A stretch of DNA of 64,000 nt from NCBI GenBank assembly GCA_029559035.1, contig JAKQCT010000001.1, positions 62,001-126,000 of the forward strand, given 5' to 3'. The notes under the pieces are model-generated. The model did no database searches. It saw only the letters and a list, made by a program, of their open reading frames with translations, and was not told where the DNA came from. Below are positions 6,208-16,374 of the stretch, piece by piece. Numbering within the stretch: the first letter of the stretch is position 1; every line of letters begins with the position of its first letter. This DNA is from Acidobacteriota bacterium. Lineage in GTDB: Bacteria; Acidobacteriota; UBA4820. A program made the translations under genes and the position numbers.

Positions 6208-6259
6208 GGGTTCTTCCTCCTTTCATTCGGATAATGAAGCACTTTATCGTCACAAAGAG

Positions 6260-6312
6260 AATGAACGTACATTCTCTTAAAACATTGTAAATAGCAAAAT
6301 GCCTCTTGTCAA
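6260..6312 (-). promoter_or_regulatory. Promoter plus operator for the Cys-rich secreted protein
   Basis: On the minus strand TTGACA (6312-6307), a 17-bp spacer and TACAAT (6289-6284) are followed 10 bases later by AATGTACGTTCATT (6273-6260), extended to an AGAGAATG / CATTCTCT palindrome at 6256-6277. The operator lies just past the expected transcription start, where a bound repressor would block initiation. The same arrangement recurs at 9747-9800 and 11627-11678. Confidence 0.8.
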
Positions 6313-6395: not shown

Positions 6396-6968
6396 TCAAG
6401 GCATATCTTTAAAGGAAATGTCGTATAAGCTTCTTGTCTTGGGCACATATTCAGAAAGAAGTATCTTGTCCCCCTCGCTGAAAGATATCTCTTCTAAAAC
6501 CATTCCTTTTCGTACCATCTGCCCAAGTGGTTTCAACCAACGCTCCAGATCGGGAATGCTTATTAATAGGGGAGATATCCTTACATAGGAGGGCAGTTGC
6601 GTGACACTGCCCTGCACCAGATGTGCACAGCTCCGCTTCCTCCCGCTCGCACCCCCTATTTCATAGGGTACCCACCAAGAATCGAATGTCTTGTGTGTGA
6701 TGACGCCGAGAAGATGAGTGCAGGTCTCCAACCCCCGCTCGATGCATTCTACGATCTTTTTATGATCATCGGCAGCCGAGGCATTTTGCAGGTCATGATC
6801 ATACTCATCGAAGTAAACATCTATTCCCATCTGCCTGATTGACCGACTGACGGCCCTTGCCATTGCCTTGTCATCGCTCCGATGCGATATGAAGACGCAA
6901 TAATGGTCGTAAGACCTTGCAAGGCGGCGGATATCCTTGTAATTTTCAAATAGATTCTTTCCTTCCAT
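6396..6968 (-). CDS. TIR-domain protein (candidate NAD-processing effector or sensor)
   Basis: 190 aa. Two ATGs are adjacent; AGGAGG lies five bases before 6968, which I use. Residues about 22-150 form a TIR fold: beta-A YCVFISHRSDD, BB-loop region GIDVYFDEYD, then THLLGVITHKTFDSWWVPYEIG, where E103 is in the position of the TIR catalytic glutamate. The rest is short, so there is no separate sensor domain. Bacterial TIRs of this kind cleave NAD+ or make cyclic-ADP-ribose signals in phage defence. It is the last gene of a five-gene minus-strand operon, 6 bases from the previous stop. NADase activity is inference. Confidence 0.75.
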   Translation of the reverse strand: MEGKNLFENYKDIRRLARSYDHYCVFISHRSDDKAMARAVSRSIRQMGIDVYFDEYDHDLQNASAADDHKKIVECIERGLETCTHLLGVITHKTFDSWWVPYEIGGASGRKRSCAHLVQGSVTQLPSYVRISPLLISIPDLERWLKPLGQMVRKGMVLEEISFSEGDKILLSEYVPKTRSLYDISFKDMP

Positions 6969-6977
6969 CATTTCCTC

Positions 6978-7454
6978 CTATTCCTGCCGTTCCAGAGCAG
7001 TAAGATCCTCAACGTCGGCCATTTGAGCCAGCATCGACGAGTAAGTTCTCAGCTTGTCTTGTAATTCCTGCAATTCCTTCCGAAACAACTCGCACTGCTT
7101 CTTTTTCTTGAATGCCCCATCCAGATCCAGCTTGTGCCACTTGGCAGTGAAAGGCCGGACAATTTGATTAAGAACTACAATCGCTATCTTTGTGAATTCT
7201 TCGCAGTCACGGCCGTGGTCCTTGATTATCCCGCGAGTAAGCCCGAATATCGAATTTATGCTTTCCAGGGCGGTATTTTCGTCGCCGTGCTTTTCAGGCA
7301 GCGGCTGAGTCGTGATCCGTGTCAGCAATTCGATGTAAAGTTCCCAGGCCGCAGCCTTATCCTCTTCTTTGGGCTTCCACACCATTTCAAGGAAAGGAGT
7401 ATTGATCTTCAAGGAGGTCATGTCCCAGTTTTCAAGCCATTTTTTCCATTTCAT
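6978..7454 (-). CDS. Helical hypothetical protein of the TIR operon
   Basis: 158 aa, starting MKWKKWLENWDMTSL with GGAG upstream. It is predicted all alpha-helical: a Trp-rich N-terminus, a central stretch (CEEFTKIAIVVLNQIVRPFTAKWHKL) and a charged C-terminal coiled-coil-like helix (KKKKQCELFRKELQELQDKLRTYSSMLAQM). No signal peptide or membrane segment and no catalytic motif. It lies 6 bases upstream of the TIR gene, so the two are probably made together, possibly as partners. I do not recognise the family. Confidence 0.65.
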   Translation of the reverse strand: MKWKKWLENWDMTSLKINTPFLEMVWKPKEEDKAAAWELYIELLTRITTQPLPEKHGDENTALESINSIFGLTRGIIKDHGRDCEEFTKIAIVVLNQIVRPFTAKWHKLDLDGAFKKKKQCELFRKELQELQDKLRTYSSMLAQMADVEDLTALERQE

Positions 7455-7496: not shown

Positions 7497-7778
7497 CTAG
7501 AATATGAATACAAATACCCCATTGCTTGATCCAGAGGATCTGAAATCAGCGTCTTTCATTCCAAGATAATCAACGAAATAATGGCGTATTGCCTCTGCGT
7601 CGTGAAGAGAATCCGCCGGCCATTGCCCCCACTTTTCGAGATTATTCCCTTCGGCGGCAAGCTGCTCAAGTCTTTTATCAGGTGAATCGGTCATGCCGAT
7701 TGTCCAAATATGGTAGTCGAGCACTTTTGAAGACTCCACCCGTCTGATTATCTGCTTTACTATTTCCATCTTGTTCAT
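7497..7778 (-). CDS. Small GIY-YIG-like protein of the TIR operon
   Basis: 93 aa. The segment YHIWTIGMTDSPDKRLEQL resembles the core of GIY-YIG proteins (Y-x-G-x-T-x-x-P-x-x-R), and PADSLHDAEAIRHYFVDYLGMK resembles the following helix. It ends VFVFIF. It lacks the full nuclease length and I do not see a clear metal-binding Glu, so it may be a non-catalytic or single-domain nucleic-acid binder. It sits between the ThsB-like gene and the helical 158-aa gene. The similarity is by eye and weak. Confidence 0.6.
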   Translation of the reverse strand: MNKMEIVKQIIRRVESSKVLDYHIWTIGMTDSPDKRLEQLAAEGNNLEKWGQWPADSLHDAEAIRHYFVDYLGMKDADFRSSGSSNGVFVFIF

Positions 7779-7831: not shown

Positions 7832-8380
7832 TCAGTAGCGCCATTGGTCCCCGGATTTGTTATATGAAAACGAAGGGAAAGAAATATCCGGTTCAACCGC
7901 GTTCCTTTTGTCGAAGGCATCCTGTATCCATTCACGGATGTCGTCGGGGTTATTTGTCCAGTTGTGCAGTTTGGCGTAACCGCATTTGACGTTGTCATAT
8001 AATCGCGGCGGGATCGTATAAGGATTGTAGTTTGTCATTGAGGCCCTGGGATAAGTCGGCAACAGGATCCCCAGTAATCCGGAACGTGGATTTAGGCGGG
8101 TATCCCTGATACTTGAGGATATCTCCCAATCGATATGTTTTCTCCTCCATGTATCGCTTCCCACGAGGACAACCGTTACCGTCGTATCCCTAAGGTATTC
8201 ATCCCTGATTTTTTGCCTTATCGTATCCGAAGGAAGATTCGGGTCAATATCGCCTTCTTCCACGGCCATGGAGATGAATACTTCATAGTAATCCGCGAAC
8301 ATCTTCCTGAAAAGGGTTTTGTAATCCTCATCGTTCTCGTGATGGTAACTTATAAACGTTTTATGCTTTTCGAAAATCAT
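7832..8380 (-). CDS. ThsB-like TIR-fold protein (DUF1863 / Thoeris ThsB-TIR type)
   Basis: 182 aa. HKTFISYHHENDEDY begins the fold. GDIDPNLPSDTIRQKIRDEYLRDTTVTVVLVG, TWRRKHIDWEISSSIRDTRLNPRSGLLGILLPTY and YTIPPRLYDNVKCGYAKLHNW are typical of the ThsB-like TIR family. E86 in HIDWEISSS is the candidate catalytic glutamate. In Thoeris, ThsB senses infection and makes a cyclic ADP-ribose signal for ThsA; no ThsA (SLOG/Sir2/Macro) gene is in this window. RBS AAGGAA lies upstream. It is the second annotated gene of a minus-strand operon with another TIR protein, which could be the responder. Confidence 0.85.
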   Translation of the reverse strand: MIFEKHKTFISYHHENDEDYKTLFRKMFADYYEVFISMAVEEGDIDPNLPSDTIRQKIRDEYLRDTTVTVVLVGSDTWRRKHIDWEISSSIRDTRLNPRSGLLGILLPTYPRASMTNYNPYTIPPRLYDNVKCGYAKLHNWTNNPDDIREWIQDAFDKRNAVEPDISFPSFSYNKSGDQWRY

Positions 8381-8561: not shown

Positions 8562-9236
8562 TTATGCCTTCGGCGGTTCGGGCGGGGTATCGTCATCGTC
8601 TTTTTTGGGCTTGGAGACTTTCTTGAAGAATGTGTCGGCGCTTCGTTTATCCCCGTCCAGGACGGAAAGCACATCGCCGTAGCTCTTGCTGTAGGCGACA
8701 AGCCAGTTGATCTTTTCGGCCTCCACAAGCTCCCACGCGTTGCTCGCGGCGGTGATGGCCGCCTTGAGGCCCGCGATTGACTTCTGGTATGTCTCAAGCA
8801 ATGCCTTCAGGTTCGGCAGAATTCTTGCCACAACCGGGTCATCCGGGGTTTCGGAAAGAACCCCGATCAAAGCGGTGACTTTGCCCGCTTCTTCATCGAA
8901 ACTGCACCTGATCAAGGCCGTCAGCCCGTCCGGGAACCACCTGAGGACGGCGGGGTCTTTCTTGTTGTTCCCGCACGCCCCGAGCTTTGAAAAGTAAAGG
9001 TCGCGCACGGTGTTGTCCAAATCATAGTCCGCCTTGACCATCTGCGCTTCAAGCGCCGAAATCGTCCTTTGGGCCTGGTTGAACGCGTTGCCTTTTCTTT
9101 CAAGCTCTTCCTGCCTTTTTTTGAAACTTTCCGCCAAATCCTTCATTTTCGGATCCGCTTCAAGGCGTGAATGCGTAAATACTCCAAACTCGTTTACCAT
9201 TGTCAGCCAACCGATACTGCCTTTTACCATCTCCAT
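8562..9236 (-). CDS. Helical hypothetical protein, first main gene of the TIR operon
   Basis: 224 aa, start preceded by AAGGAGG. The sequence is almost all helix: a heptad-rich segment (MKDLAESFKKRQEELERKGNAFNQAQRTISALEAQM) at about 30-70, a middle region with RWFPDGLTALIRCSFDEEAGKVTALIGVL, a second long helical pair (LPNLKALLETYQKSIAGLKAAITAASNAWELVEAEK) and an acidic, proline-rich tail (KPKKDDDDTPPEPPKA). There is no signal peptide. A coiled-coil scaffold or sensor is a reasonable guess, nothing more. I do not recognise the family. Confidence 0.65.
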   Translation of the reverse strand: MEMVKGSIGWLTMVNEFGVFTHSRLEADPKMKDLAESFKKRQEELERKGNAFNQAQRTISALEAQMVKADYDLDNTVRDLYFSKLGACGNNKKDPAVLRWFPDGLTALIRCSFDEEAGKVTALIGVLSETPDDPVVARILPNLKALLETYQKSIAGLKAAITAASNAWELVEAEKINWLVAYSKSYGDVLSVLDGDKRSADTFFKKVSKPKKDDDDTPPEPPKA

Positions 9237-9265: not shown

Positions 9266-9616
9266 TCAGAAATAAATTGGTTTATGAGTCAAGTCGGGAC
9301 GCCCCGACATGGCAAAAAAGGCCTCTTTTATGGAAGTATTTCCTCCGACCCCACTACAACATCCATTTTCTATCGCGTCGGAAATCAGAAACGGCAGAAA
9401 AAGAACTGTTGAAGGATCTAGGGAAAATTCGGAATGAGAGAAATACTCGTTTGTCGCCGTTGTCGGCGGGCAGACTTGAAAAAAAACAGGTTCTCCTACC
9501 GTTCCGGCAGGAGTTCTTCTGAAAAACACCTGAGAAATGGAGGGTTCTGGCGACTTTTTACTCTTTTTAAATGGTTCATTGGTTTTTTCTTGTTTCCCAA
9601 GAAGGATCAAACCCAC
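9266..9616 (-). CDS. Uncertain ORF in the long leader of the TIR operon
   Basis: GTG 9616 has AGGAGG five bases upstream, an ideal site, and would give 116 aa ending just before the 9236 gene. The protein (MGLILLGKQEKTNEPFKK..., ...NGCCSGVGGNTSIKEAFF) has no recognisable domain, and its DNA contains a hairpin with eight Ts on the minus strand (9479-9513), unusual inside a real gene. It could be a small accessory protein or chance reading through a structured leader. Confidence 0.3.
   Translation of the reverse strand: MGLILLGKQEKTNEPFKKSKKSPEPSISQVFFRRTPAGTVGEPVFFQVCPPTTATNEYFSHSEFSLDPSTVLFLPFLISDAIENGCCSGVGGNTSIKEAFFAMSGRPDLTHKPIYF
9479..9513 (-). terminator. Possible attenuator hairpin in the TIR operon leader
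   Basis: On the minus strand a 9-bp stem (CTCCTGCCG / CGGTAGGAG, one G-T pair) is followed by AACCTG and eight Ts. It lies about 250 nt after the operon's predicted start and 240 nt before the first firm gene, so it could stop transcription early unless overridden. Confidence 0.45.
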
Positions 9617-9704
9617 TGCCACCTCCTGTTGATATTACGCTGAACAAGTTGCTTTGAATGTTTTCATACCAATTCATTTCAGACATCCGCTTGAAAAAGC
9701 TCAT
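9576..9704 (-). CDS. Possible 42-aa leader peptide of the TIR operon
   Basis: ATG 9704 with GAGG about five bases upstream opens a 42-aa ORF (MSFFKRMSEMNWYENIQSNL..., ending SGFDPSWETRKNQ). It is the first ORF after the promoter at 9747-9800. Its protein looks more natural than the overlapping 116-aa ORF, but is too short to assign. It may be a small real gene or the 5' remnant of a frameshifted one, since the overlapping frame continues downstream. Confidence 0.35.
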   Translation of the reverse strand: MSFFKRMSEMNWYENIQSNLFSVISTGGGSGFDPSWETRKNQ

Positions 9705-9746
9705 TGCCGCCTCATGAGAAAAACGCAATTCTATTCCCTAATAATG

Positions 9747-9800
9747 AATGAACGTTCATTTCAAGAGGTGAGCTTATAATATTTATTAGGCTGTTGTCAA
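9747..9800 (-). promoter_or_regulatory. Promoter plus operator for the TIR operon
   Basis: On the minus strand TTGACA (9800-9795), a 16-bp spacer and TATAAG (9778-9773) are followed 12 bases later by the perfect palindrome AATGAACGTTCATT (9760-9747). Position and sequence match the operators at 6260 and 11627. Confidence 0.8.
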
Positions 9801-9896: not shown

Positions 9897-10619
9897 CTAG
9901 GAAGATAGAGAGGATATGCATTCTAAAGCCAATTTTGTCGATTCCTTTTTTGGCGTTTTTTTGAAAAGAAGTCCAAGGTCAAATTTTACCGCTATCGACG
10001 GATCATTTTCGAATACTCTCTTAGCCGTTCGTTCAAGGCGTTTTAATGTAAGGAATGTATGTCCTTTGAGGATGAGGAAGTCACGGGTGTTATCGGAAAG
10101 TGCTGCTATAGCCTTTTCCAGAGTAGTGCGACCGAGAAAAAGTCCTTCCATGATTTCCCTTCCCTCACGAATATCATTTTGCGAAAACCCCCATATCTCC
10201 AGCGGTTCGCGGAATTTCTGGGCAACAACAATAAGGGATTTGATCCGGTTCTCTACCTTTAGTATGTCGCATCCGGTTTTGCCACGAAGATGAAACTCAT
10301 CCCTGATTTCTGGCTCTTCTTGAAATGCATTATCAGCGGTTAGTGTAAGGTTTCTTATCCACTTCATCGCAGATTGAAAGAAAACCTCGACGAAGTCGCA
10401 TGCCGCCATTGAAGATTCCAGATCGGGTCGTTCCTCCTGATTCATCAATAGCGTTAATAGCAGTTGTTCAAGACCCTCAACCTCCTCATCCGGATACTTC
10501 CCTATCAGATCTACGGCATATCCTTTGGCCAACGCCAGACATATCTGGCTCTGTTCGATCAGCCTAATGGCCGAAAATTTGGTTCCGATCATCGCAAGCA
10601 TATTATCGTCCAGAGGCAT
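9897..10619 (-). CDS. Helical hypothetical protein
   Basis: 240 aa, start preceded by AAGGAG. Composition and spacing suggest a cytosolic alpha-helical protein: LIEQSQICLALAKGYAVDLIGKY, LEQLLLTLLMNQEERPD, FVEVFFQSAMKWIRNL and a C-terminal helix (FLTLKRLERTAKRVFEND). No signal peptide, membrane segment or known motif. It is 41 bases downstream of the membrane-anchored 301-aa gene in the same unit. I do not recognise it. Confidence 0.6.
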   Translation of the reverse strand: MPLDDNMLAMIGTKFSAIRLIEQSQICLALAKGYAVDLIGKYPDEEVEGLEQLLLTLLMNQEERPDLESSMAACDFVEVFFQSAMKWIRNLTLTADNAFQEEPEIRDEFHLRGKTGCDILKVENRIKSLIVVAQKFREPLEIWGFSQNDIREGREIMEGLFLGRTTLEKAIAALSDNTRDFLILKGHTFLTLKRLERTAKRVFENDPSIAVKFDLGLLFKKTPKKESTKLALECISSLSS

Positions 10620-10660: not shown

Positions 10661-11566
10661 TTATCCATCATGTCGTGGTAGTGGCATATTCTTTCGTTCC
10701 TGCAAATCCGCAACTATTAAAAAATCGTCTGAATGCGTTTTAATTTGATCCATACCAATCCCATCTACTGATAATGCGAGAAGGTTGTCGCCGTCCTTAA
10801 GATTGATGGTGACTATGTCCCATCCTCCCGGGTTCCTTCGAAAAAGATTGGAAATGATCATATCGTTAAATCTGGCTTTAAAAGTCTCCGGAATTATCGC
10901 AAGATCATAGAATATGATCAAGGAGAATGCACTTGTTCCGGCAGGCAGTATTATGGTCGGTGCGATAAGATTTGCATACGTCAAGAAGGTCGGATTATTC
11001 TTGTTATCTGTTGCGTATCCGCCTTTGATAAAACTCCCCCTCATATTGTCACTGTTATAGTAAAGGAAATACTTATGAGGTATTCCTGGAAAATATGGAA
11101 TATTCTCGTAGCATTTCGTCAGCCTTTCATAGTTGTAGTTCCGTGCATGGATTTCCATCGTGTAAGCTGGTATATTTCCCTGGGCATCGTTAACGGTGAT
11201 GCCGTAATATCCGCTTTCAGCATGATTTACATAAAACTCTTTACAATCAGATTCTGCTCCCTGGCCGATCTTACAGGAATATGAAGAGGGAATTATATTG
11301 GGAGACACATTGCCGTAAGAGTCAATTTCCATTGTTTGGCCAAAGGGATCTTTAACGGAAAGGCCGACTTGTCCATATATTTTGATACTTACGCTATTTA
11401 AAGTGGTTGCATCGATTTTCGATGAACTTCGTATCGGATTGCGAAAACCTGATGCTTCTCTTTCTTCTTTTGATTTGATTACTCTTGTTGTTATACCCGC
11501 GATCACCAGAGCAGTTATCAATAAGAAAGCTAAAATCACTCCGGAGATTATAATCGCCATTTTCAT
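10661..11566 (-). CDS. Membrane-anchored protein with extracytoplasmic beta domain
   Basis: The track starts at a GTG (11623) only 4 bases past the operator; I prefer ATG 11566, with GGAG upstream, giving 301 aa (ATG 11560 is also possible). Residues 3-30 (AIIISGVILAFLLITALVIAGI) are one membrane segment followed by a basic stretch. The rest is a beta-rich domain starting SVSIKIYGQVGLSVKDPFGQ, reminiscent of extracytoplasmic sandwich modules, with pairs of Cys (SYSCKIGQGAESDCKEF). It leads a two-gene unit under the shared operator. It could be a membrane effector or anchor for the TIR regulon; this is inference from position. Confidence 0.6.
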   Translation of the reverse strand: MKMAIIISGVILAFLLITALVIAGITTRVIKSKEEREASGFRNPIRSSSKIDATTLNSVSIKIYGQVGLSVKDPFGQTMEIDSYGNVSPNIIPSSYSCKIGQGAESDCKEFYVNHAESGYYGITVNDAQGNIPAYTMEIHARNYNYERLTKCYENIPYFPGIPHKYFLYYNSDNMRGSFIKGGYATDNKNNPTFLTYANLIAPTIILPAGTSAFSLIIFYDLAIIPETFKARFNDMIISNLFRRNPGGWDIVTINLKDGDNLLALSVDGIGMDQIKTHSDDFLIVADLQERKNMPLPRHDG

Positions 11567-11626
11567 AATTGGTTCATTCTCCGCATGCCGTTCCTTTACC
11601 GTTAACTCAAGATGAACGCCCACTTA

Positions 11627-11678
11627 ATTGAACGTTCATTCAGAAAGCGATGGTACTCCCGCGCGGGATGTTTGTCAA
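11627..11678 (-). promoter_or_regulatory. Promoter plus operator for the membrane-protein unit
   Basis: On the minus strand TTGACA (11678-11673), a 17-bp spacer containing a CCCGCGCGGG palindrome, and a weak TACCAT (11655-11650) are followed 9 bases later by AATGAACGTTCAAT (11640-11627), one base off the island consensus. Confidence 0.75.
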
Positions 11679-11767: not shown

Positions 11768-11795
11768 TTGAATCCTTGTTTTGGGGAGGTTGAAA

Positions 11796-12410
11796 ATGAC
11801 GCCTTCAAGGAAAGAGAGAGAAAGGGAACTCAGGGTAAGGCTGGTACTCGAGGCCGCCGAAAAAGTGTTCGGCAAGAAATCCTACGAGGACGCTTCGATG
11901 CTCGAGATCGCCAAGGAAGCGCAGCTCGGGATGCAGAGTCTCTACAACACCTTTCAGAGCAAGCGGGACCTCTACGAGAGCCTGGTCACCTACCGGATAA
12001 GCAAGTTCAGGGCGGCGATGGACGAAGTCTTCAAGAAGAACGAAGACCCTCTGGAAGCGCTGCGCGAATGGACTACGGAACATTTCAAGACTTTCGCCGA
12101 CCTTTCGGCCTTCTACCCCGTGTTCCTCAAGGAGAGGTTCAACTACGTCTGGGGGTTCAAGTCGCGCTCCCTTCCCGCGCTTACCGTCGCTTTTCAGAAG
12201 GAGGAGAAGAGGCTGGTCGGCCTGCTGGAGAAGGCTCAAAGGGCGGGCTACCTTAAACCCGTACCGATAGAACAGGTCAAGACCGTTTTCGTCGGGCTTC
12301 TTCAGTCCAGGCTCGAATACCATTTCCTTAACAAGAAGCCGATAGAGGTGAACCAATGCGTGGAAGAAACCTTGAGCATTTTCCTCGATGGATTAAAGCC
12401 GCAGTCCTGA
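11796..12410 (+). CDS. TetR/AcrR-family repressor of the efflux operon
   Basis: 204 aa from ATG 11796, with GGGGAGG six bases upstream; the track's 11781 is a TTG within that region. Residues about 10-60 are a TetR HTH: LVLEAAEKVFGKKSYEDASMLEIAKEAQLGMQSLYNTFQSKRDLYESL. The remainder is the helical ligand domain. It leads a tetR-tolC-emrA-emrB operon, so it probably senses an exported compound and represses the promoter at 11739. Its 3' end overlaps tolC by 55 nt, unusually long for this genome. Confidence 0.9.
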   Translation: MTPSRKERERELRVRLVLEAAEKVFGKKSYEDASMLEIAKEAQLGMQSLYNTFQSKRDLYESLVTYRISKFRAAMDEVFKKNEDPLEALREWTTEHFKTFADLSAFYPVFLKERFNYVWGFKSRSLPALTVAFQKEEKRLVGLLEKAQRAGYLKPVPIEQVKTVFVGLLQSRLEYHFLNKKPIEVNQCVEETLSIFLDGLKPQS

Positions 12411-13705
12411 CGACGGCGCTGCCCGCTTTCGGCGCGGCAGTTTCCGCTCAGGAGGTCCTGACCCTGGACCAGGCCCTCGAGATGGCGGCGGCGGGATCGT
12501 ATGCCGCCCAGGCCGGAGCTCTTGACGAAAAGATCGCGGAGCAGAAGGTGAAGGAGAGCCTTTCGCTCTACTACCCGAAGATCGATGTCTCGGTCGGGCA
12601 TGTACATCTCGACAACGACCCCGCGTTCAAGTTCGGACCCGCGATCTTTCCGGCCGGAGAACAGCTCTACTGGAAATGGGACCTCACGGTCCAACAGACC
12701 CTGTGGGATTTCGGAAGGAGGCGGGACATCCTGAACGCTTCCGAGACCGCTAGGGTCGCCGTCGGGAAAAGGGTGTCGAACGAGATAAGGATGAAGCAGG
12801 CCGAGGTGACCGCCATCTACATGCAGGCGGTGACCCTTGCGGACCAGATATCGGTCGTCGGGTCGAGGAAGAAGAGCCTCGAGGACCATCTCAAGGTAGC
12901 AAAGAACCTCTACGAACAGGGAGTCGTCACCAGGAACGACCTGCTCAGGACGGAGGTGGCCCTCAGGTCGCTGGACGACGCCGCGCGGGAGCTCGAAACA
13001 GCGCGGAGGACGGCCGTCGACAAGCTGCTGGTCGCCGCGGGGATGGACATCTCCGATGACGTCGTCCTCGAAGACCCGGCCGGGAAGGTCGCGCCGCTCT
13101 CGCTGACCCGCGGATGGAGCGAGGCAGAGCTGAGGGACAGGGCCGTTTCGGGCAACGAAGGATTGAAGGCGCTCGACGGTAAGATCTCCGCCCTGGAGGA
13201 CGCCCACAGCTTCGCCAGAAAGGAATCGTATCCCTATCTTGTCGGAGCGGCCGGCCACAGCTACGAGCAGAACAGGTATTTCGCCTATCCTCATGTCAAC
13301 AGGCTCTTCCTCGGGGTGTCGGTGAACCTGTTCGACGGAGGCGCCAGGAAAGCCAGAGAAGTGGAAGCAAGGGCGGAGGTCGAAAAGGCGAGAAGAGAGC
13401 GCCTCGAAGCCGAGAGGGAAGTGGTCTCCGCGATAATGAAAGCCTACAGGGATTACAGGGACGCCGTGGAGGAGCATGACACGGCCAAGCTCAACGCCGC
13501 GTCGTCAGCCGAGAACCTGAGGATAATCGAGGACCAGTACAGGGAAGGACTCCTGAAGACCACGGACTACCTGGAGGCGGAATCGCTCCTCGCGGACAGC
13601 CGTTTCCGTGAGACCGAAAGTCTTCACAAAGTTATATCCTGCGAGGCGGCGATCGCCGCGCTGATGGGCGAAGACCTCAGGCAGTTCTTCGCCGGAAAGA
13701 ACTGA
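12356..13705 (+). CDS. TolC-family outer-membrane efflux protein
   Basis: 449 aa. After a signal peptide (RWIKAAVLTTALPAFGAAVSAQ) come two outer-membrane efflux protein repeats: LTLDQALEMAAAGSYAAQAGALDEKIAEQKVKES, WDLTVQQTLWDFGRRRDIL and the second-half EVEARAEVEKARRERLEAEREVVSAIMKAYRDYRDAVEE plus IIEDQYREGLLKTTDYLEAESLL. It forms the outer-membrane channel for the downstream HlyD and MFS partners. ATG 12356 lies within tetR, so translation may be coupled to tetR reading. Confidence 0.9.
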   Translation: MRGRNLEHFPRWIKAAVLTTALPAFGAAVSAQEVLTLDQALEMAAAGSYAAQAGALDEKIAEQKVKESLSLYYPKIDVSVGHVHLDNDPAFKFGPAIFPAGEQLYWKWDLTVQQTLWDFGRRRDILNASETARVAVGKRVSNEIRMKQAEVTAIYMQAVTLADQISVVGSRKKSLEDHLKVAKNLYEQGVVTRNDLLRTEVALRSLDDAARELETARRTAVDKLLVAAGMDISDDVVLEDPAGKVAPLSLTRGWSEAELRDRAVSGNEGLKALDGKISALEDAHSFARKESYPYLVGAAGHSYEQNRYFAYPHVNRLFLGVSVNLFDGGARKAREVEARAEVEKARRERLEAEREVVSAIMKAYRDYRDAVEEHDTAKLNAASSAENLRIIEDQYREGLLKTTDYLEAESLLADSRFRETESLHKVISCEAAIAALMGEDLRQFFAGKN

Positions 13706-13715
13706 GGAGGTTCAG

Positions 13716-14717
13716 ATGGCGGTTCAAAAAAGGTTCGCGGCGCTGTTCATCCTGGTGGGACTCCTTGCGGTCGGGTCCGTCGCGGGCTACTTCCGCTGGC
13801 AGCATTCGAAGATATTCGTGAAAACGGAGAACGCCTATGTCATGGGCGACATATACACGGTCTCCTTCAAGACCCCGGGGAAGATCTCGAGGATGGAGGT
13901 CGAGGAGAACAGGCTGGTCAAAAAGGGCGACATGATCGCCGTCCTGGAACCGGAGGATCACGATACCGCTATAAGGAACGCGGAGGGGAAAGCCGACGAG
14001 GCTCTCGCGGGCGTCGATACCACCCGGGCGCAGATCAGCCAGGCACGCTCCGCGGTGAAGGTGATCGAAAGCCAGCTCGAACTCGCCGTGATAGAAAGGA
14101 AAAGGGCGGAGAACCTCTACTCGAAGGAATCGGTTCCCAAGCAGAAATACGACCATGCCTTGACGAACGAGAAGGTCCTTCTGGCACAGCTCGATGCCGC
14201 GAAGAAAGCCCTTCTGACCGCAGAGGCCGGCCTGAAAGTTTCCGAGGAGAAGGTGAAGACCGCCCGGGCCTCGCTCGATTCCGCGAAGCTGACCAGGTCC
14301 TACTGCGAGCTCTACGCCCCCGAAACCGGATATGTCACGAAAAAAAGCGCCGAGCCGGGGCAGGTGGTGCAGGCCGGACAGCCGCTATGCGCGATCGTCC
14401 CGCTGAGCGGCGGGTCGGTCTGGGTCGAAGCCAACTACAAGGAGACCCAGCTCAAAAGGATGAAGCCGGGACAGAAGGCCAGGTTCTGGAGCGATGTGGA
14501 CAAGTCGGTCGTTTTCGAGGGAGAAGTAGAAAGCATCGCGCCCGGGACAGGAGTGGTATTTTCCCTTTTCCCGCCGGAGAACGCGACGGGCAACTGGGTC
14601 AAGGTGGTCCAGCGCGTCCCGGTCAGGATTAAGATCGCTCCGGGACAGCAGAAGGCAGACATGCTCCGCCTCGGCCTTTCGGTCACATGCGTCGTGGAGA
14701 CAAAGGAAGACAAGTAG
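13716..14717 (+). CDS. HlyD/EmrA-family periplasmic adaptor
   Basis: 333 aa, start preceded by GAGGAGG. One N-terminal membrane segment (FAALFILVGLLAVGSVAGYF), then a barrel-sandwich (lipoyl) half IYTVSFKTPGKISRMEVEENRLVKKGD, a long alpha-hairpin (about 85-205), the second half ELYAPETGYVTKKSAEPGQVVQAGQPL and a beta-barrel WVEANYKETQLKRMKPGQ. It links the TolC-like channel to the EmrB-like pump as in EmrAB-TolC. Confidence 0.9.
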   Translation: MAVQKRFAALFILVGLLAVGSVAGYFRWQHSKIFVKTENAYVMGDIYTVSFKTPGKISRMEVEENRLVKKGDMIAVLEPEDHDTAIRNAEGKADEALAGVDTTRAQISQARSAVKVIESQLELAVIERKRAENLYSKESVPKQKYDHALTNEKVLLAQLDAAKKALLTAEAGLKVSEEKVKTARASLDSAKLTRSYCELYAPETGYVTKKSAEPGQVVQAGQPLCAIVPLSGGSVWVEANYKETQLKRMKPGQKARFWSDVDKSVVFEGEVESIAPGTGVVFSLFPPENATGNWVKVVQRVPVRIKIAPGQQKADMLRLGLSVTCVVETKEDK

Positions 14718-14727
14718 GAAGTTGGGA

Positions 14728-14815
14728 TGCCGGGAAGCCGGCAAGCCAGGAAGGAAAGATCAATAAGGAAATGAATTCCTTCATTTTTCATTTTTCAATT
14801 TTCAATTCGCCGCAG
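14728..14815 (-). repeat. Dispersed intergenic repeat (inverted copy)
   Basis: The gap between emrA and emrB contains ATCAATAAGGAAATGAATTCC followed by heptad-like TTTTTCA/TTTTCAA units, the reverse complement of the element found three times at 60965-61207. It ends CGCCGCAGGCGTTTTT, a short hairpin with a T run. Confidence 0.6.
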
Positions 14816-14826
14816 GCGTTTTTCCC

Positions 14827-16374
14827 ATGATGAACTCCGGCAACAAATACCTCATCGCCTTCACGACGATGCTGGGCACCTTCATGGAGATCGTCGACAC
14901 TTCCGTCGCGAACGTCGCCCTTCCTCACATGGCGGGAACATACGGCGCGGGAACGGACGAGATAACCTGGGTGATAACTTCCTACCTGGTCGCCAACGCC
15001 GTCATCCTCCCGCTTACCGGCTGGATAGGCAATTTCTTCGGTAGGAAGAGGGCGTACCTTGCCTGCCTTGTCATCTTCACTCTCGCCTCGCTCGGTTCTG
15101 GCGCCGCGCCGACTCTGCCGATCCTGATCCTGATGCGGGTCGTACAGGGGCTGGCGGGAGGCGCGATGGTGCCGATGTCGCAGGCGATCATGCTCGAGAC
15201 CTTCCCGAAGGAGGAGCACGGCAAGGCGATGGCGCTCTTCGGGGTCGGCGTCATCTTCGGCCCCATAATCGGCCCCACTCTCGGCGGCTGGATCACCGAC
15301 AACTGGAACTGGCCATGGATCTTTTATGTCAACATACCCGTCGGGATCGTCGCGATCGTCCTGGGATACATGCTGATCGAAGACCCTCACTACATAAAAA
15401 AGCCCGAAGGCAGGGTCGATTACTGGTCGTTCGCCTTCGTCGCACTGGGGCTCGGAAGCCTCGAGGTCCTGCTGAACAGGGGAGAGAGGTACGACTGGTT
15501 CGAGAGCGGGTTCATCAGGTTCTGGGCCGTCGCGGCCGCCGTAGGCATCTTCCTTTTCATCTGGAGGTCCTTCACCGCCGAGAACCCCCTCGTCAACCTT
15601 TCCATAATGAAGAACAAGGAGTACGCCGCGGGAACGAGCCTGATGTTCCTCACCGGGTTCGGCCTCTACGGCTCCTTCGTTATGCTTCCCATCTTCTGCC
15701 AGCACCTCCTGGGCTACACCCCCACTCTCGCCGGGCTGGTGATATCCCCGGGAGGCTTCGCCTCGCTGATCGCGATGGTCTTCGTGGGGACGCTGGTCGG
15801 AAGGATTGACACGAGGATCCTCGTCTTCACAGGCATCATCTTCAACATCGTCTCGCTGTGGCTGCTGACCTTCTCGAGCCTCTCGTCCGACTTCGCCTTC
15901 CTCATGGCGTCGAGGCTGTTCCAGGGGTTCGGCCTCGGCTTCCTTTTCGTCCCGATCACGGTCTCGGCCTTCACTCGGATACCTCCGCATCTCACCGGGC
16001 AGGCGACCGGCCTCTTCAATCTCCTCAGGAACGAGGGCGCTTCCGTCGGGATCGCCCTTTCCGCGACGGTCCTCTCGCAGAGGTCGCAGTTCCACCATAA
16101 CAATCTCGTCTCGAACCTTACGCCCTTCTCCGGGGAGCTTTCGGAGGCTCTCGGGGCGGCGGGACACTACTTCTTCGGGGCGGGCGGACTCGATCCAGCG
16201 TCGTCGAAACTGGCGGGAATGGGCCTTGTTTACAGGGAGCTCGTCAGGCAGTCATACCTGATGGCGTTCGTGGATGTGTTTCACTTCCTCATGATCGTCT
16301 TCTTCCTTCTGATACCGTTCGTTTTCCTGCTGAAGGGAAGGGCGGGAAAGGCCGCGGCTCAGACCCCTCAATAG
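14827..16374 (+). CDS. EmrB/QacA-type (DHA2) MFS drug exporter
   Basis: 515 aa with about 14 membrane segments. Typical motifs: MLGTFMEIVDTSVANVALPHMA at the N-terminus, WVITSYLVANAVILPLTGWIGNFFGRKR (motif A region) and the motif C region GVGVIFGPIIGPTLGGWITD. It would expel hydrophobic compounds through the adaptor and TolC-like channel encoded upstream. No good ribosome binding site precedes ATG 14827 because a dispersed repeat fills the gap. Its 3' end overlaps that of the convergent anti-sigma gene by 7 bases. Confidence 0.92.
   Translation: MMNSGNKYLIAFTTMLGTFMEIVDTSVANVALPHMAGTYGAGTDEITWVITSYLVANAVILPLTGWIGNFFGRKRAYLACLVIFTLASLGSGAAPTLPILILMRVVQGLAGGAMVPMSQAIMLETFPKEEHGKAMALFGVGVIFGPIIGPTLGGWITDNWNWPWIFYVNIPVGIVAIVLGYMLIEDPHYIKKPEGRVDYWSFAFVALGLGSLEVLLNRGERYDWFESGFIRFWAVAAAVGIFLFIWRSFTAENPLVNLSIMKNKEYAAGTSLMFLTGFGLYGSFVMLPIFCQHLLGYTPTLAGLVISPGGFASLIAMVFVGTLVGRIDTRILVFTGIIFNIVSLWLLTFSSLSSDFAFLMASRLFQGFGLGFLFVPITVSAFTRIPPHLTGQATGLFNLLRNEGASVGIALSATVLSQRSQFHHNNLVSNLTPFSGELSEALGAAGHYFFGAGGLDPASSKLAGMGLVYRELVRQSYLMAFVDVFHFLMIVFFLLIPFVFLLKGRAGKAAAQTPQ

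Follow-up and report, generated by a model that had tools for sequence, protein, structure and literature searches.

The window, a stretch of 64,000 nucleotides from an Acidobacteriota genome, harbors two TIR genes in a gene unit on the minus strand (Table 1). TIR-A is followed after 53 bp by the gene of a 93-aa protein, which is separated by 42 bp from the gene of a helical protein (HP), and HP lies only 6 bp from TIR-B and thus directly beside a TIR gene. Clear GGAG-type ribosome sites belong to the 93-aa gene, HP, and TIR-B; the site of TIR-A is weaker (AAGGAA). All reading frames of the unit are intact, and its G+C content is 44–48% compared to 55% in the 17–60 kb part of the window. The other genomes sampled from its family and order contain no match to TIR-A, in keeping with a module that was acquired. 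The stretch from 8380 down to 6396 (TIR-A, the 93-aa gene, HP, and TIR-B) is proposed to be a compact anti-phage operon, and a defensive role of the cluster is very probable. The 93-aa protein has no relatives in plasmids or in 297 genomes of the phylum; its match to MUG113 is weak (E 0.13) and was not counted as evidence.

Table 1. Genes of the TIR-A unit and its upstream neighbors, with positions in the window.
Feature	Position	Strand	Remarks
TIR-A, 182-aa ThsB-type TIR (PF08937)	7832..8380	(-)	ATG start
93-aa protein between TIR-A and HP	7497..7778	(-)	RBS-like GGAG
HP, 158-aa helical protein, undescribed TIR-linked family	6978..7454	(-)	
TIR-B, 191-aa TIR_2 protein	6396..6971	(-)	6 bp after HP
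224-aa paralogous-family protein	8562..9236	(-)	181 bp upstream of TIR-A
240-aa helical protein	9897..10619	(-)	relatives in same-order genomes
320-aa membrane protein	10661..11623	(-)	three paralogs in tandem at another site of the genome

The surroundings of the unit contain further features. The spacer at 9266–9622 holds a 118-aa translation and a strong hairpin (9513–9493) and is possibly a dispersed repeat, not a gene. Three near-identical palindromes (GAATGAACGTnCATTC) are found at 6259–6274, 9746–9761, and 11626–11641, each of them preceded on the minus strand by a TTGACA promoter-like site, and they resemble the operators of TetR-type regulators. A TetR gene is located at 11781–12410, and the TetR gene and the outer-membrane factor, HlyD-like, and MFS genes that follow it (12356–16374) form a probable multidrug efflux operon.

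TIR-A had been described in the earlier note as a ThsB-like TIR without ThsA, and domain models, defense-system models, and the predicted fold agree with the first half of this description. The protein matches Pfam ThsB_TIR (PF08937) with E 2.9e-21 and 76.2 bits (gathering score 21.2), PADLOC ThsB with E 1.8e-10, and, by profile, the solved ThsB chains 6lhy/9b7d with E 4e-8. In a Foldseek search its AlphaFold2 model (pLDDT 79.5) matched BdThsB1 with NAD (9vyl) at a probability of 1.00, and ThsB 9b7d and EcThsB2 were matched as well. The motifs quoted in the earlier note are present at residues 60–74 (DEYLRDTTVTVVLVG) and 82–90 (HIDWEISSS). TIR-B, likewise called a TIR in that note, matches Pfam TIR_2 with E 6.3e-9, and the ThsB_TIR and PADLOC ThsB models match both proteins. 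F9 and E86 are invariant among 14 TIR-A sequences, as are F27 and E104 among eight TIR-B sequences. E86 is aligned with E85 of ThsB, which is required for cADPR synthesis (PMC10022894), and both residue pairs mirror the E81/F6 pair that is required for immunity in staphylococcal ThsB2 (PMC12578639). Judging from these alignments, the catalytic glutamate is kept in both TIR proteins.

The second half of the description, the lack of ThsA, holds for the window and for the genome as assembled. None of the eight neighboring proteins contains a SLOG, Sir2, or Macro domain according to Pfam. The genome (2.86 Mb, 99 contigs) is 95.35% complete, so that about 5% is missing, and encodes only two ThsB_TIR proteins, both of which lie in the window. 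At this completeness no match was obtained for the STALD SLOG or for ThsA_Macro, and the searches with LD_cluster2 and with a TIR-SLOG protein, both run without a positive control, were empty as well; a ThsA elsewhere in the genome, which would have spoken against the earlier note, was thus not found. There is also no ThsA beside the 18 TIR-A loci that were read, where the SLOG proteins present are of the LD_cluster2 type, which is not STALD. A third TIR of the genome, a 451-aa TIR_2 protein on contig C30 (L066, 8065–9420), is not linked to HP and was rejected as a member of the system. Close to it are encoded a 1042-aa protein and a relative of the window's 240-aa protein.

HP was compared with PADLOC 2.0, NCBIfam (June 2026), Pfam, PHROGs, and open-access papers, and its novelty is judged against these sources only. 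No accepted match was found in Pfam, NCBIfam (including its Thoeris type III models), PADLOC, or PHROGs, none was found in annotated phages, and nothing significant was found in the PDB by sequence or by fold. The AlphaFold2 model is a four-helix bundle (pLDDT 76.9), whose fold-search matches in the PDB and BFVD (best E about 0.2–0.3) are mostly generic helical bundles from which no function was read. Thus, nothing marks HP as a nucleotide-binding fold, which counts against reading it as a receptor. S65 is kept in all 16 HP sequences, and E42, R46, R74, K78, N96, R100, P101, and W106 are kept in 12–14 of them; from the helix topology of the model, E42, R46, S65, R100, and W106 should sit toward one end of the bundle.

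Relatives of HP occur in plasmids, in genomes of the same phylum, and on IMG/VR contigs, where a scan with the single TIR-A sequence was empty and profile scans gave matches. The family takes on three forms. The window protein is soluble, whereas a second branch in Aureispira, Klebsiella, E. coli, Listeria, and others carries N-terminal membrane helices (L018, L020, L022, L027, L028, and L030; loci other than the window are given by L numbers). An hhalign comparison unites both branches in a single family (probability 97.5%, E 8.2e-12). The third form comes from two rhizobial plasmids and has HP as the N terminus of an 860–890-aa protein with a patatin phospholipase domain (E 1.2e-8 in L014; E 2e-5 in L017, which is below the Pfam cut-off).

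The link between HP and TIR genes is retained over a wide range of hosts. With near-identical enterobacterial plasmids counted once, 22 HP loci were read, and a TIR gene neighbors HP within about 400 bp in 19 of them (the window, L004, L013, L014, L015, L016, L017, L018, L020, L022, L024, L028, L030, L037, L039, L040, L041, L042, and L045). Only one of the two HP copies in L015 is counted as TIR-linked, and in L016 an opposite-strand 47-aa CDS intervenes. The exceptions are L029, which has no TIR within the stretch, L038, where the contig ends, and the second Calothrix copy. The adjacency extends over Gamma- and Alphaproteobacteria, Chloroflexi, Cyanobacteria, Bacteroidota, Firmicutes, Actinobacteria, the phylum of the window, and IMG/VR contigs. 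On phage contig L045, TIR-A, HP, and TIR-B are contiguous in the same order as in the window and lie beside SPP1-type portal and terminase genes. TIR-A is followed by HP after 11 bp on phage contig L041, which carries holin and muramidase genes, and L042 combines TIR-A, a membrane HP, and a second TIR with a holin alongside. HP additionally pairs with TIR-NACHT (TIR-NACHT-FGE), TIR-TPR, and TIR-WD40 proteins, in which the TIR may itself be the effector.

On plasmids, tblastn finds a TIR-A relative in 149 records and the membrane HP in 138, with matching host lists. In the three larger plasmids that were read (IncF, IncN, and IncC backbones), a trio of HP, TIR-A, and TIR-DUF1883 adjoins a Tn3-family transposase and a resolvase. 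At least 80% of this trio is present in 18 of 5426 complete E. coli genomes, always on plasmids. HP and TIR-A are convergent on the enterobacterial plasmids and do not form one operon, which counts against an operon-coupled reading. On a 4.9-kb Klebsiella plasmid (L020) with six annotated genes, TIR-A and membrane HP account for two, in this convergent arrangement.

The composition of the TIR-A loci indicates which position HP may occupy. Among the 18 loci read, HP is present at 11 (the window, L004, L017, L018, L020/L027, L022, L024, L028, L041, L042, and L045) and an LD_cluster2-type SLOG protein at six (L003, L005, L018, L021, L024, and L044); L018 and L024 carry both. The TIR-SLOG proteins of L018 and L003 match LD_cluster2 with E 1e-54 to 1e-61, and homologs are encoded in L005, L024, and L044. 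L046 stops after the TIR half of a TIR-SLOG-type pair, L019 (Acinetobacter) has a TPR-S protein near TIR-A, and L023, a contig end, shows TIR-A without a recognized partner. In L003 (8826–13139) and L014, TIR relatives occur with Nmad2 (nucleotide modification associated) and MazG-like/HD genes, and the larger assembly at these loci is TIR-SLOG-Nmad2-MazG. SLOG domains have been put forward as sensors of ADPR derivatives (PMC9503650), and cADPR isomers activate ThsA (PMC11204291). HP is most simply read as a further receiver that serves this class of TIR, and it seems to be a modular receiver or transducer standing in for the SLOG arm of Thoeris-like systems. The earlier note had offered the second TIR, the helical proteins, or the membrane protein as stand-ins for ThsA; this list can now be narrowed to the helical HP, strongly supported as a partner by its co-occurrence with TIR across phyla, and to TIR-B, a conserved third member in phage L045.

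The proposed mechanism would start with TIR-A, probably paired with TIR-B as sensor and enzyme in the manner of two-TIR Thoeris, sensing infection. In the staphylococcal two-TIR system the capsid is sensed by ThsB1 and the signal is made by ThsB2 (PMC12578639), and a phage capsid is suggested as the trigger here by analogy only. TIR-A would convert NAD+ through its conserved glutamate into an ADP-ribose-type signal, and HP would receive this signal where ThsA would use its SLOG sensor. In the HP of relatives the killing part would be built in, either as N-terminal membrane helices or as a patatin phospholipase. For the soluble HP of the window, the output would most likely pass to the adjacent TIR-B NADase, leading to NAD+ loss and abortive infection. 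As a whole explanation, an operon with a TIR signal, an HP receiver, and a TIR-B output may be right or wrong with about equal probability. Its parts differ in strength. HP is quite likely a transducer coupled to TIR, the chances are balanced between its binding of a nucleotide and its binding of the TIR, and the role of executioner is assigned to TIR-B only tentatively. Several observations count against the explanation: the HP of the window has no fused effector, minimal pairs such as TIR-A and HP in L041 show no obvious executioner except the TIR, the TIR-NACHT, TIR-TPR, and TIR-WD40 partners of HP may use their TIR as the effector, and no TIR lies beside HP in L038 and L029. A broader proposal, put forward with some reserve, is that HP is an unrecognized, all-helical counterpart of SLOG and Macro, a receptor domain to which an ADP-ribose nucleotide made by TIR would bind. 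It would then define a ThsA-independent class of TIR signaling with swappable outputs (membrane helices, patatin, or TIR NADase) that is spread by phages and transposon-bearing plasmids.

The main rival to the receiver model is direct contact, in which HP acts as a scaffold, inhibitor, or trigger subunit that controls the assembly of the TIR NADase without a diffusible signal, and the fused membrane and patatin parts would serve to position the complex or to couple it. We consider this somewhat doubtful, and the data are compatible with both models. It would account for the very different TIR proteins that HP partners (TIR-NACHT-FGE, TIR-TPR, and TIR-WD40) and for lone pairs of TIR and HP without other effectors (L040 and L041), and all-helical effector-associated domains (EADs) provide a precedent for coupling through contact (PMC7159879). 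The alternation of HP and SLOG partners around the same TIR-A family, however, fits a shared signal better, and the TIR proteins carry no second HP copy, so that HP is not a homotypic EAD.

The remaining alternatives are far less probable. That the TIR genes serve a non-defense role or are decaying passengers is very unlikely: in its favor, TIR-A is without a match in the other genomes of its order that were sampled, but the frames are intact, the catalytic positions are invariant, and homologs are found on phage contigs, beside Tn3-type transposase genes of plasmids, and next to restriction genes (L054). An ordinary Thoeris system, with TIR-A as ThsB and with ThsA lost or encoded in sequence that the assembly lacks, would suit the ThsB_TIR and PADLOC ThsB matches of both TIR proteins and the incomplete, fragmented assembly; it is highly improbable given the empty STALD, ThsA_Macro, and TIR-SLOG searches, the 18 TIR-A loci without ThsA, and the conservation of HP as the partner instead. 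Least probable of all is an effector among the 224-aa, 240-aa helical, and 320-aa membrane proteins, which share the strand and lie upstream of the TIR genes but are probably bystanders outside the system, as each of them has paralogs in this genome at sites outside the TIR-A operon (six matches for the 224-aa protein, with others in same-order genomes, and, for the membrane protein, three on the same contig, arranged in tandem), the relatives have none of them next to TIR-A or HP, the same-order relatives of the 240-aa protein were read without TIR-A or HP beside them, and the 224-aa gene stands 181 bp from TIR-A.

Several known systems share traits with the unit. Thoeris (ThsB and ThsA, including staphylococcal ThsA-B1-B2) has a ThsB-type TIR with the F/E active-site pair, and the staphylococcal operon holds two different TIR proteins (PMC12578639); the predicted fold of TIR-A is BdThsB1/ThsB-like. 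Two ThsB TIR genes are accordingly present here, but no ThsA effector was found in the 95.35% complete genome, and the third conserved gene is HP, of an unrelated helical family. TIR-SLOG (LD_cluster2, PF18163), which has been named among antiviral systems (PMC9503650), stands near the same TIR-A family (L003, L018, L005, L024, and L044), whereas in the window HP holds the partner position and TIR-SLOG was not found in the genome by the search without a positive control. TM-macro Thoeris (type II) combines a TIR enzyme with a membrane-anchored receiver, comparable to the membrane-helix HP of plasmids and phages, with the difference being that the receiver domain is Macro there and HP here. An active-site tyrosine is reported for the type II protein EcThsB2 (PMC11204291), whereas position 9 of TIR-A is a phenylalanine by alignment. 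EADs resemble HP as small, non-enzymatic, all-helical modules that swap effector parts, but they couple homotypically (PMC7159879) and HP is not seen on TIR proteins. The PADLOC candidate PDC-M50 is touched by TIR-A, which matches PDC-M50B (E 4.1e-10); HP matches no PADLOC model, so that only the B partner is represented.

The HP family and the HP-TIR variant of TIR-based defense appear to be new relative to the databases and open-access papers compared. Searches of open-access PMC papers for HP-like partners, TPR-S, or TIR with patatin turned up nothing usable, and an earlier description, for example in a preprint, is possible. If the proposal is true, many ThsB-type TIR genes without ThsA would be parts of a separate TIR-HP system rather than broken Thoeris, and this system would span several phyla, phage genomes, and Tn3-type transposase surroundings on clinical-type plasmids. 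The missing partner would thereby be named, and there would be a receiver domain open to testing, known in two natural fusions to effectors and with homologs compatible with E. coli. The finding would bear on how one TIR signal feeds interchangeable effectors.
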